Below, piece by piece: positions 29,363 through 32,802 of a DNA stretch of 64,000 bases. The stretch lies in the NCBI RefSeq assembly GCF_016918015.1, contig NZ_JAERMK010000001.1, forward strand, positions 232,225 through 296,224, written 5' to 3'. The notes under the pieces are model-generated. The model saw nothing but the letters and a program-made list of their open reading frames with translations, was not told the DNA's origin and did no database searches. This stretch comes from Glycomyces sp. YM15. Its GTDB lineage: Bacteria > Actinomycetota > Actinomycetes > Mycobacteriales > Micromonosporaceae. Every line of letters begins with the position of its first letter. The first letter of the stretch is position 1. The translations under genes and the position numbers were made by a program.

Positions 29363-29767
29363 CTACTGCTGCTTGATGCGGACCATGTTGCCCGCCGGGT
29401 CGCGGAAGGCGCAGTCGCGGATGCCGTACGGCTGGTCGGTGGGCTCCTGCACGACTTCGGCGGTCTCCTGGAGCTTCGCGAAGACCTCGTCGAGGTCGGG
29501 CGTCGACAGGTTGATGGAGGCGTAGGTGCCCTTGGCCATCATCTCGGCGATGGTGGCGCGCTCCTCGTCGGTGATGCCGGGGTCGGCCGCCGGCGGGTGC
29601 AGGACGATGGAGACGTCCGGCTGCCCGGCGGGCCCGACGGTGATCCAGCGCATGCCCTCGTAGCCGACGTCGTTCCGGACTTCGAAGCCGAGCACGTCCC
29701 GGTAGAACTCCAGGGCGGCTTCAGGATCGTTCTGCGGCAGGTAGGCCTGGTAAATGTTGATGTCCAT
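29363..29767 (-). CDS. VOC-family (glyoxalase-like) protein, single module
   Basis: A 134-residue single VOC module: QAYLPQNDPEAALEFYRDVLGFEVRNDV, GMRWITVGP, and the C-terminal DCAFRDPAGNMVRIKQQ. Metal ligands of the family are partly replaced by Gln/Glu, so catalysis is not assured; it may bind a toxic ligand. There is no ribosome site, but TAGGCT lies exactly 7 bases before ATG, which suggests a leaderless transcript. It lies ten bases after the AraC gene and could also be read from the AraC transcript. Related to the VOC gene at 1-384 by promoter, not by close sequence. Confidence 0.88.
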   Translation of the reverse strand: MDINIYQAYLPQNDPEAALEFYRDVLGFEVRNDVGYEGMRWITVGPAGQPDVSIVLHPPAADPGITDEERATIAEMMAKGTYASINLSTPDLDEVFAKLQETAEVVQEPTDQPYGIRDCAFRDPAGNMVRIKQQ

Positions 29768-29817
29768 GCGGGCAAGCCTATTTCTTGGCGGTGCCGGGTG
29801 CTTCTCGATTCCTGATC
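29765..29817 (-). promoter_or_regulatory. Leaderless promoter with shared 18-bp motif, copy 2 (inside AraC gene 3' end)
   Basis: Minus strand: GATCAGGAATCGAGAAGC (29817-29800), 19 bases, TAGGCT (29780-29775), 7 bases, ATG (29767-29765). The motif is in the last codons of the AraC gene and encodes part of its end (RNREA). Confidence 0.7.
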
Positions 29818-30227
29818 GGTCTGCTGATCTGCTTGGAGACGCACGCCGGGATGCCCTCGGTCGCGGCGGCGGCCTTCTCCTTGTAGACGCTCGGCGGCAT
29901 GCCGACCAGTTCGGTGAACCGGGTGCTGAACGTGCCGAGCGAAGAGGACCCGACCGCGAAGCACACCTCGGTCACGCTCATCTCGCCGATGCGCAGCAGG
30001 GCCATCGCGCGTTCGATGCGCCGCGTCATCAGGTACGAGTAGACCGATTCGCCGTACGCGGCTTTGAACTCGCGGCTGAGGTGCCCGGCCGACATGTGGA
30101 CGCCGTGCGCGAGGGCCTCGACGTTGAGCGGTTCGGTGTACTCGCGGTCGATGCGGTCGCGCACTCGCCGCAGGAGCGCGAGGTCGCGCAGGCGCTGCGC
30201 TGAGGTCGGTCGGCTGGTCACGGGCAT
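29778..30227 (-). CDS. AraC-family regulator, HTH-only type
   Basis: A 149-residue protein consisting almost wholly of the AraC/XylS DNA-binding domain. HTH1 is around residues 30-55 (LNVEALAHGVHMSAGHLSREFKAAYG). HTH2 is around 82-105 (MSVTEVCFAVGSSSLGTFSTRFTELVGMPPSVYKE). A short tail follows, with Cys (IPACVSKQ) and the end ISRPIRNREAPGTAKK. No ligand-binding domain, so it may respond to redox (the single tail Cys), level, or a partner. Likely activator of the VOC gene downstream and of the promoters sharing its motif (inference). ATG 30227 has an AT-rich box (CACAATATG) and may itself be leaderless. Confidence 0.88.
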   Translation of the reverse strand: MPVTSRPTSAQRLRDLALLRRVRDRIDREYTEPLNVEALAHGVHMSAGHLSREFKAAYGESVYSYLMTRRIERAMALLRIGEMSVTEVCFAVGSSSLGTFSTRFTELVGMPPSVYKEKAAAATEGIPACVSKQISRPIRNREAPGTAKK

Positions 30228-30379
30228 ATTGTGCCACCGCGTGCAACCTCCGGCCAATGGCGACGCCTCCAGGCGGGCGCCCGGCCTCGGGGGGCATCGG
30301 GCGTCCGCTCCGGAGGGGGTCGGCCGGAAGCGCCGCACGCCCGCGACGAGTCGCGGGCGTGCGGTCGGGTAGGTGCCGG

Positions 30380-32752
30380 TCAGGCGCCGACGTACTCGGC
30401 GAGGTGCTGGGCGGTCAGGGTGGAGCGGTCGGCCACGAGGTCGGCGGGCGTGCCTTCGAAGACGATCCTGCCGCCGTCGTGGCCGGCACCCGGGCCGAGG
30501 TCGATGATCCAGTCGGCGTGGGCCATCACGGCCTGGTGGTGCTCGATGACGATCACGGTCTTGCCGGAGTCCACGAGCCGGTCGAGCAGGCCGAGGAGGT
30601 TCGCCACGTCGGCGAGGTGGAGGCCGGTGGTCGGCTCGTCGAGGATGTAGACGCCGCCCTTGTCGCCCATGTGCGTGGCGAGCTTGAGGCGCTGCCGCTC
30701 GCCGCCGGAGAGGGTGTTGAGCGGCTGGCCGAGGGTGAGGTAGCCGAGTCCGACGTCGGCGAGGCGGAGGAGGATCTTGTGCGCGGCAGGGGTCTTGGCC
30801 TCGCCGTCGCCGAAGAACGCCTCGGCTTCGGCGACGGACATGGCGAGGACTTCGCTGATGTCGCGGCCGCCGAGGTGGTATTCGAGGACGGTCGCTTCGA
30901 AGCGCTTCCCGCCGCAGTCCTCGCACGGCGTGGAGACGGTCTCCATGAACCCGAGCTCGGTGAGGATCACCCCGTTGCCGTTGCAGGTGGGGCAGGCGCC
31001 CTCGGAGTTGGCCGAGAACAGCGCCGGCTTCACGCCGTTGGCCTTCGCGAAGGCCTTGCGGATCGGGTCGAGCAGGCCGGTGTAGGTGGCGGGGTTGGAG
31101 CGGCGGGAGCCTTTGATGCCGCTCTGGTCGACGACGACCACGCCGTCCTCGCCCGCGAGGTGGCCGTGGATCAGGGAGCTCTTGCCGGAGCCCGCCACGC
31201 CGGTGACGACGGTGAGCACGCCCGTGGGCACGTCGACGTCCACATCGTCCAGGTTGTTCGTGGTCGCGCCGCGGATCTCCATGGCGCCGGCGGGTTTGCG
31301 CACCGTGTCCTTCAGCGAGGCCTTGTCGTCCAGGTGGCGGCCGGTGACGGTGTCGCTGGAGCGCAGCCCGTCGAGGGTGCCTTCGTAGCAGATGTCGCCG
31401 CCGCCGCTGCCCGCGCCGGGGCCGAGGTCGACGATGTGGTCGGCGATGGCGATCGTCTCGGGCTTGTGCTCGACCACGAGCACGGTGTTGCCCTTGTCGC
31501 GCAACCGGAGCAGCAGGTTGTTCATCCGCTGGATGTCGTGCGGGTGCAGTCCGATGGTGGGCTCGTCGAAGACATAGGTGACGTCGGTGAGCGAGGAGCC
31601 GAGATGCCTGAGCATCTTGATGCGCTGGGCCTCGCCGCCCGAGAGGGTGCCGGAGGGGCGTTCGAGGCTGAGGTAGCCGAGACCGAGTTCGACGAAGGAG
31701 TCGAGGTTCTCGCTGAGCGCCCGCAGCAGCGGCGCGAGCGCGGGCTCGTCGATGCCCTTGACCCATTCGGCCAGGTCGGTGATCTGCATGGCGCACACGT
31801 CGGCGATGTTGGCGCCCTTGATCTTCGAGGACAGGGCGGATTCGCTGAGACGGGTCCCGCCGCAGTCGGGGCAGTCCGCGAACGTGGCCACCCGCTCGAC
31901 GAAGGCGCGGAGGTGCGGCTGGAGCGCGTCGAGGTCCTTGGACAGCATCGACTTCTGGATCTTGGGGATCAGGCCTTCGTAGGTGATGTTGATGCCCTTG
32001 GCCTTGATCTTGGTGGGCTCCTTGTAGAGGAAGTCGTGGAGCTCCTTCTTGGTGTACTTCGCGATCGGCTTGTCGGGGTCGAAGAAGCCCGATTCGCGGT
32101 AGGTCTGCACCATCCAGCCGTCGGCCGTGTAACCCGGGACGGTGATCGCGCCTTCGGCGATCGACTTGGTCTCGTCGAAGACCTGCGTGAGGTCGATGTC
32201 CGAGGTCTTGCCGCGGCCTTCGCACCTGGGGCACATGCCGCCGTGGTAGACCGCCTCCCGCACGATGGTCTTCTCGCCGGTGGCGGAGGTCAGGACGCCG
32301 CTGGCCTTGCGGGCAGGGACGTTGAACGAGAAGGCGATCGGGGGTCCGATCTGCGGGGAGCCGAGCCGGCTGAACAGGACCCGGAGGATCGCGTTGGCGT
32401 CGGTCACGGTGCCCACCGTCGAGCGGGGGTTGGCGCCCATCCGCTCCTGGTCGACGATGATCGCGGTGGTCAGGCCGTCGAGCACGTCGACCTCGGGCCG
32501 GGCCAGGGTGGGCATGAAGCCCTGCAGGAACGCGCTGTAGGTCTCGTTGATGAGCCGCTGCGACTCGGCGGCGATCGTGTCGAACACGAGTGAGCTCTTG
32601 CCCGAGCCGGAGACGCCGGTGAACACGGTCAGGCGGCGCTTCGGCAGCTCGACGCTGACATCCTTGAGGTTGTTCTCGCGGGCGCCCTGCACACGGATCA
32701 TGTCGTGGCGGTCGGCGTCGTGCATATCGGAGGGCTTCACGGCTTTGCTCAT
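30380..32752 (-). CDS. UvrA-like ABC ATPase (drug-resistance / UvrA2 type)
   Basis: A 790-residue UvrA paralog, shorter than UvrA (about 950) because the UvrB-binding region is missing. Two ABC modules: Walker A GVSGSGKSS near 44-52 with signature SGTLSGGEAQR, and GVAGSGKSS near 500 with NTLSGGERQR; paired CxxC zinc motifs CPRCEGRG, CPDCGG, CPTCNGNG and CEDCGG. This is the actinobacterial UvrA2/DrrC-like group, tied to resistance to DNA-binding drugs. TAGAGT lies exactly 7 bases before ATG 32752 and no ribosome site is present, so a leaderless mRNA is likely. Confidence 0.93.
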   Translation of the reverse strand: MSKAVKPSDMHDADRHDMIRVQGARENNLKDVSVELPKRRLTVFTGVSGSGKSSLVFDTIAAESQRLINETYSAFLQGFMPTLARPEVDVLDGLTTAIIVDQERMGANPRSTVGTVTDANAILRVLFSRLGSPQIGPPIAFSFNVPARKASGVLTSATGEKTIVREAVYHGGMCPRCEGRGKTSDIDLTQVFDETKSIAEGAITVPGYTADGWMVQTYRESGFFDPDKPIAKYTKKELHDFLYKEPTKIKAKGINITYEGLIPKIQKSMLSKDLDALQPHLRAFVERVATFADCPDCGGTRLSESALSSKIKGANIADVCAMQITDLAEWVKGIDEPALAPLLRALSENLDSFVELGLGYLSLERPSGTLSGGEAQRIKMLRHLGSSLTDVTYVFDEPTIGLHPHDIQRMNNLLLRLRDKGNTVLVVEHKPETIAIADHIVDLGPGAGSGGGDICYEGTLDGLRSSDTVTGRHLDDKASLKDTVRKPAGAMEIRGATTNNLDDVDVDVPTGVLTVVTGVAGSGKSSLIHGHLAGEDGVVVVDQSGIKGSRRSNPATYTGLLDPIRKAFAKANGVKPALFSANSEGACPTCNGNGVILTELGFMETVSTPCEDCGGKRFEATVLEYHLGGRDISEVLAMSVAEAEAFFGDGEAKTPAAHKILLRLADVGLGYLTLGQPLNTLSGGERQRLKLATHMGDKGGVYILDEPTTGLHLADVANLLGLLDRLVDSGKTVIVIEHHQAVMAHADWIIDLGPGAGHDGGRIVFEGTPADLVADRSTLTAQHLAEYVGA

Positions 32753-32802
32753 GATCGCCACTCTAGAGGGACGGTCCGACGCTCGCTTCTCGATTCCTGA
32801 CC
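32750..32802 (-). promoter_or_regulatory. Leaderless promoter with shared 18-bp motif, copy 3
   Basis: Minus strand: GGTCAGGAATCGAGAAGC (32802-32785), 19 bases, TAGAGT (32765-32760), 7 bases, ATG (32752-32750). Spacing is identical to copy 2. Confidence 0.7.

Follow-up and report, generated by a model that had tools for sequence, protein, structure and literature searches.

A conserved promoter motif associated with a small AraC-family protein and resistance-type genes in Glycomyces and other Actinomycetota

The window analysed, a 64,000-nucleotide stretch of the genome of Glycomyces sp. YM15 (contig NZ_JAERMK010000001.1, positions 232,225 to 296,224), contains three minus-strand copies of an 18-bp motif, GATCAGGAATCGAGAAGC, each located 19 or 20 bp upstream of a TANNNT −10 hexamer and followed by a gene of a family associated with resistance. 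One of the copies forms the end of a small AraC-family gene, araC. The motif is very probably the operator of the product of this gene, a MarA/SoxS-like activator consisting of helix-turn-helix (HTH) units only, which would drive an intrinsic resistance regulon. In the proposed mechanism, AraC would bind this non-palindromic site, which replaces the −35 element in a promoter whose one other element is the TANNNT −10 hexamer, and would recruit the housekeeping RNA polymerase to genes for resistance-type proteins, namely VOC proteins, an Ecm16-type UvrA-like ATPase, DUF1801 proteins and F420-dependent reductases. Each unit in the window would have its own operator, while in many other actinobacteria araC, a VOC-sized gap and the uvrA-like gene share a strand and would be served by a single operator within the 3′ end of araC. 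The predicted function is to make the cell tolerant of natural products that bind DNA or are reactive.

Promoter architecture in the window

Two of the copies are exact and one has a single change (Table 1). A search of the window for the 18-bp motif with up to three mismatches returned only these three matches, against 0.03 expected from shuffles. Likewise, the 16-bp core TCAGGAATCGAGAAGC, allowing up to two mismatches, matched only the three window copies in the whole 5.67 Mb genome, and a reversed-pattern control of the core had no matches.

At the VOC and UvrA-like genes, the motif is followed by 19 nucleotides (N19), the hexamer TAGGCT or TAGAGT, seven nucleotides (N7) and ATG; at the tandem-VOC gene, the order is N20, TATCGT, N7 and ATG. 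All three promoters have TANNNT 7 nt ahead of an ATG, as in leaderless actinobacterial promoters (6–7 nt), and no ribosome-binding site was seen at any of them on inspection by eye. The preliminary description, made from the letters of the window, had reported the shared motif with one change in the second copy, the N19 and N7 spacing and the missing ribosome site for the first two of these genes, and all of this was found again; the third promoter differs in its N20 spacer. The placement of the motif at about −45 to −28 in that description was about 5 bp off: with the A of ATG as +1, the motif covers about −50 to −33, shifted by one further base where the spacer is N20. As judged from the sequence, transcripts of the window VOC and UvrA-like genes most likely start at or beside the ATG. 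In Mycobacterium tuberculosis, 26% of the genes with a primary start were reported to begin at the start codon (PMC3898074). The copy inside araC makes up the last part of the coding sequence and is not situated in an intergenic gap.

Table 1. Positions of the predicted operators, −10 hexamers and genes in the window
Feature	Positions	Strand	Details
Predicted operator of VOC promoter	29800..29817	−	GATCAGGAATCGAGAAGC, exact; within araC 3′ end
−10 hexamer TAGGCT	29775..29780	−	19 bp from operator; first half, TAG (29780–29778), doubles as araC stop codon
VOC gene (glyoxalase/bleomycin-resistance fold)	29363..29767	−	134 aa; ATG (29767–29765) 7 nt past −10
araC	29778..30227	−	149 aa; AraC-family two-HTH domain, tail with conserved Cys
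Predicted operator of UvrA-like gene	32785..32802	−	GGTCAGGAATCGAGAAGC, one change
−10 hexamer TAGAGT	32760..32765	−	19 bp from operator
UvrA-like ATPase gene	30380..32752	−	790 aa; ATG 32752–32750; close homolog of Ecm16 (PDB 7SH1)
Third predicted operator copy	418..435	−	exact
−10 hexamer TATCGT	392..397	−	20 bp from operator
Tandem-VOC gene	1..384	−	ATG 384–382; continues beyond window start (220 aa in L001)

Recurrence of the motif and its association with AraC

With up to one mismatch, the motif was found in 20 of the 22 genomes of the genus (own genome included), with two to four matches each and none for the reversed control, and in 94 of the 197 genomes sampled from the class; it was also present in 59 of 296 genomes sampled from the phylum. 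A TANNNT hexamer, sought at a spacing of 17–22 with the first one in range taken, was present at 122 of the 134 distinct sites with up to one mismatch from the genus and phylum loci (N19 in 63, N20 in 59) and was absent in that range from the remaining 12. In a public genome collection, at least 119 stretches, mostly from actinobacteria by title, contained the motif; the 121 sites that they hold among the matches listed had TANNNT, with spacings of 18–21 allowed, at N20 in 85 cases, N19 in 35 and N18 in one.

The distance to the start codon is less constant. A score favouring gaps of 5–8 nt and ribosome sites placed the chosen ATG 6 or 7 nt past the −10 hexamer at 81 of the 122 sites, and the other 41 have leaders. 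Copies outside the actinobacteria, in two Variovorax genomes, Dyella, Roseateles and an Eremiobacterota genome, show the same motif-N19/20-TANNNT arrangement with the ATG 31–39 nt past the −10 hexamer, which ties the motif to the promoter and not to the start codon. A role as a ribosome site was ruled out, since in the window the motif lies about 33–50 nt before the ATG and in other phyla its constant distance is to the −10 hexamer, not to the ATG.

The presence of the motif closely follows that of an AraC ortholog. In the class sample, where an ortholog was defined by at least 140 bits and the motif by up to one mismatch, 92 genomes had both, 16 had AraC only, two had the motif only and 87 had neither. 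Eleven of the 16 AraC-only genomes have, a short distance downstream of araC, a diverged site (e.g., AGCAGGATCGGAGAAGC or AGCAGGAACGGAGAAGC) that is followed by TANNNT at the N19 or N20 spacing. In the phylum sample, AraC reached 140 bits in 36 of the 37 genomes with the exact 16-mer, and in the exception the site is 30 bp from a contig end. Within the genus, only G012 lacks an AraC ortholog, and it lacks the site as well; the one other genome with no site at up to one mismatch, G018, has AraC together with a two-mismatch site. The site also changes with the protein: 16 of 19 regions with AraC homologs 43%–55% identical, fetched for their AraC match alone, contain variant sites (e.g., GCAGTTTTGGAGAAGC or GCAATCGAGGAGAAGC) at the same spacing, a pattern expected 0.025 times per stretch searched (whole-locus rate). 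By the pattern used, a site accompanies 150 of 171 AraC homologs, a figure biased because many loci were fetched by the motif.

A highly conserved motif near −35 could also be the −35 element of an alternative sigma factor of the extracytoplasmic function (ECF) type, with AraC a mere passenger. This explanation was rejected as highly improbable: the motif exceeds a sigma −35 element in length, its presence tracks the AraC ortholog and the site variants go with AraC subfamilies. Moreover, the −10 hexamer is a TANNNT box; in M. tuberculosis such boxes precede 73% of primary starts and are reported to occur without a conserved −35 element (PMC3898074).

Several observations weigh against AraC as the owner of every site. 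No site near araC was found in the AraC-only class genomes G214, G390, G394 and G403, and G405 has only an off-pattern site there. In the motif-only class genomes, G333 (L342, one mismatch) and G386 (L341, exact), well-formed sites precede DUF1801-type genes and AraC gave no match at E 1e-30; both are drafts, 95% and 91% complete, and a missing contig or another regulator is possible, but they count against a strict motif-AraC rule. Twenty-one of the 171 AraC homologs lack a site by the pattern; in some of them the site misses the pattern by a single change or the contig ends there, and no site at all was seen at L123, L129, L131, L133 and L155. The reversed control gave nine matches in the 296 phylum genomes and three in the 197 class genomes, and therefore some of the single-mismatch matches in the phylum are background.

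AraC might also bind the site as a repressor, the direction of regulation not being readable from sequence, or a different regulator might share or own the site, which would suit the two AraC-less genomes with well-formed sites. Given the strong genome-level link to AraC, we consider this quite improbable, and the location of the motif in the place of the −35 element favours activation over repression.

The operator often lies within the 3′ end of araC, ahead of a VOC gene, and at least 62 of the 121 listed public sites start 2 nt ahead of the point where an AraC match ends. Since the motif is in frame there in many genomes, it might be conserved solely as code for the AraC C-terminus. There is almost no chance of this, and the explanation was rejected: the same letters also precede uvrA-like, tandem-VOC and DUF1801 genes, and in 55 orthologs whose loci were retrieved independently of the motif the conservation of third codon positions is higher inside the motif (0.80–0.91) than before it (0.53–0.87), although the ranges partly overlap. 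This is the weaker of two results and the one relied on; in the biased set of loci fetched by the motif (n = 144), the values were 0.89–0.96 and 0.51–0.83.

These data bear on several proposals of the preliminary description. A regulon linked to AraC, with an operator overlapping the −35 position, agrees with genome co-occurrence, gene order and the variant sites beside AraC paralogs, and the suggested search of actinobacterial genomes for the motif, 19–20 bases and TANNNT showed that the architecture recurs in the genus and the phylum. The system, proposed to be compact, is spread over the phylum and is not local. The leaderless start fits the window VOC and UvrA-like genes; it is not a defining property of the regulon because a leader is present at the DUF1801 targets and in the Pseudomonadota copies, with the motif-to-−10 spacing unchanged.

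Two other arrangements of AraC genes and sites were observed. The own genome contains an AraC paralog (L166, G000:C23:217001-217351), 46%–47% identical, with the variant site GCAGTTTCGGATAAGC-N20-TAGGCT. In L337 (G465), operator copies flank the uvrA-like gene on both sides, and araC is located elsewhere with the variant site TCAGGAAACGAGAAGC.

The AraC protein, its target genes and predicted function

With 139 of its 149 residues as the query, the AraC protein matched only HTH families in Pfam (HTH_18, 2.1e-20; HTH_AraC, 9.1e-12), and its designation as HTH-only in the preliminary description was correct. No fused sensor domain was matched in this short open reading frame (ORF), and the best PDB match was RamA (7bef). 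With no sensor domain, control would have to come from the amount of AraC, its cysteines or a partner. Cys90 is kept in 169 of 171 and Cys130 in 160 of 170 AraC homologs, down to about 43% identity (numbering on a 139-residue query). One of the two conserved cysteines is located in the tail after the HTH domain, and they may be sensor residues.

Among the sites of the 150 homologs that have one, CA and GA-AAG are invariant and the middle part is variable, and across subfamilies CA and GAGAAG barely change. HTH1 would probably contact the upstream [T/G]CA half and HTH2 the downstream GAGAAG half. Residue 49, placed in the first recognition helix by alignment to the SKWHLQR stretch of RamA, was the top covariation column for T or G before CA, and residue 98, in the HTH2 recognition helix, was the top column for the last base. 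Less favourable to this assignment, several residues that are not part of the helices reach equal or nearly equal scores (residues 29, 17 and 24 for the last base and residue 19 for the one preceding CA), most middle bases have their top columns outside the recognition helices, and residue 78 tracks GAGAAG versus GATAAG. The effective number of sequences was about 20, confounded by descent, and together with the outside-helix scores this makes the residue-base covariation suggestive only.

The genes following the 122 sites with TANNNT were grouped by clustering of the chosen ORFs, at least one of which (L069, in the tandem-VOC cluster) is in the wrong frame, and for each main family a single representative was compared with Pfam. 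They comprise 65 genes of the window VOC type, 26 tandem-VOC, 15 DUF1801-type, five UvrA-like and five of a third VOC type, and six singles. Further targets are F420H2-dependent reductases and one MFS protein. In the public collection, downstream genes were looked at in 80 of the at least 119 stretches.

The resistance function of these targets is suggested by their homology. The best PDB matches of the VOC protein were 5umw (E 1e-20) and 6cky, which we take to be tiancimycin-family proteins. Residues 6–790 of the UvrA-like protein match Ecm16 (PDB 7SH1) with 1276 bits, and its score against TIGR00630 (uvra), 691 bits, is below the 729.8 cut-off. Ecm16 is the echinomycin self-resistance protein according to the paper on 7SH1 (PMC10192343), Ecm16-type UvrA-like proteins are described as lacking the UvrB-binding domain (PMC10413001), and TnmS1-3 may sequester tiancimycin (PMC6804068).

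Full-length homologs of the UvrA-like protein were found in 110 of the 197 class genomes. Of the 110 genes, 54 have araC no more than 5 kb away; every one of these is on the araC strand and most stand 0.5–0.7 kb downstream of it, a gap whose size fits a VOC gene. At least 10 others have only the motif, no more than 4 kb upstream, and the remaining 46 show neither araC nor the motif nearby among the matches listed. Thirty UvrA-like genes belong to AraC-less genomes, where a motif match occurred in one genome only (G333), before the DUF1801-type gene.

VOC proteins include glyoxalases, and the VOC targets, together with the conserved Cys90 and Cys130 of AraC, would also suit a genuine regulon that responds to electrophile or oxidative stress (methylglyoxal-like compounds, thiol chemistry) instead of DNA-binding natural products. 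We regard this as possible though somewhat unlikely, since the UvrA-like target is closely homologous to an intercalator-resistance protein and about half of such genes in the class sample neighbour araC.

A 34-nt element around CATATGACATGTCACGCGTG also occurs three times in the window (28074–28107, 28138–28171 and 34672–34705), the other copies being 74% and 85% identical to the first. One copy is near a response-regulator/kinase-like gene pair, and the element is a candidate operator of another regulator.

Relation to known systems

A literature search for the motif letters returned no paper, and searches for AraC with UvrA-like, glyoxalase, VOC or leaderless, and, among the matches listed, for PafBC with AraC or glyoxalase, returned nothing on the araC/VOC/uvrA-like unit. 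Within the literature searched, the operator and the regulon appear to be new, as does the position of the operator inside araC. They provide a DNA address and a likely regulator for a set of resistance-type genes, and with the exact operator the members of the regulon can be listed for any genome. The proteins of the Ecm16 type, familiar from biosynthetic clusters, are tied to a chromosomal unit that holds them beside a VOC gene, and AraC paralogs with altered sites represent a natural test of DNA reading by the AraC family.

A conserved block with the core CGTGGCACGAT was found in the araC promoter of 143 orthologs; the window version, CGGTGGCACAAT, is located at 30228–30238, upstream of araC, and no known element was recognised in the block. 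The letters TTGTCRGTG, which we take to be the RecA-NDp consensus, followed by N8 and TANNNT, were found with up to two mismatches upstream of 10 of 163 araC homologs, against 0.2 expected from mononucleotide shuffles and none on the other strand; eight of the 10 occupy the same place, that of the conserved block. This likeness to the PafBC regulon, a RecA-independent DNA-damage response (PafBC and the RecA-NDp promoter are described in PMC6789036 and PMC8223512), would place araC under PafBC in those lineages. Unlike in that regulon, the RecA-NDp-like element is found neither before the window araC nor before most of its homologs, and PafBC control of the window araC is unsupported.

On a wider scale, one might envisage a phylum-wide, MarA-like actinobacterial regulon for intrinsic tolerance to DNA-binding natural products, a possible source of the Ecm16- and TnmS-type self-resistance genes of producers, in which some lineages would pass a damage signal through PafBC to AraC and on to the VOC, UvrA-like and F420 enzymes. 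We offer this scheme as speculation that is unlikely to hold as a whole.

Like Ecm16, DrrC and related UvrA-like self-resistance proteins, the window protein may confer resistance, as its close full-length similarity to Ecm16 suggests; unlike in those cases, its gene stands beside araC and VOC genes, and its homologs are present in more than half of the class genomes. The VOC protein resembles the TnmS-type and bleomycin-resistance-type VOC proteins through its best structural matches, although the similarity is modest (77 bits).

The closest parallel to the regulator is provided by MarA, SoxS, Rob and RamA, the AraC/XylS activators of enterobacteria. The 5′ half of the marbox is GCA, and the site predicted here is likewise non-palindromic, has a [T/G]CA 5′ half, takes the place of the −35 element and keeps a fixed spacing to the −10 hexamer. 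The protein is also a small one with two HTH motifs and no other domain matched, and its targets are, by homology, of the resistance type. Distinct from those activators are the conserved cysteine-bearing tail, the frequent location of the operator within the 3′ end of the regulator's own gene, the different set of targets and, in many actinobacteria, the leaderless promoters. The regulator itself is of a known kind, that of MarA, SoxS and RamA.

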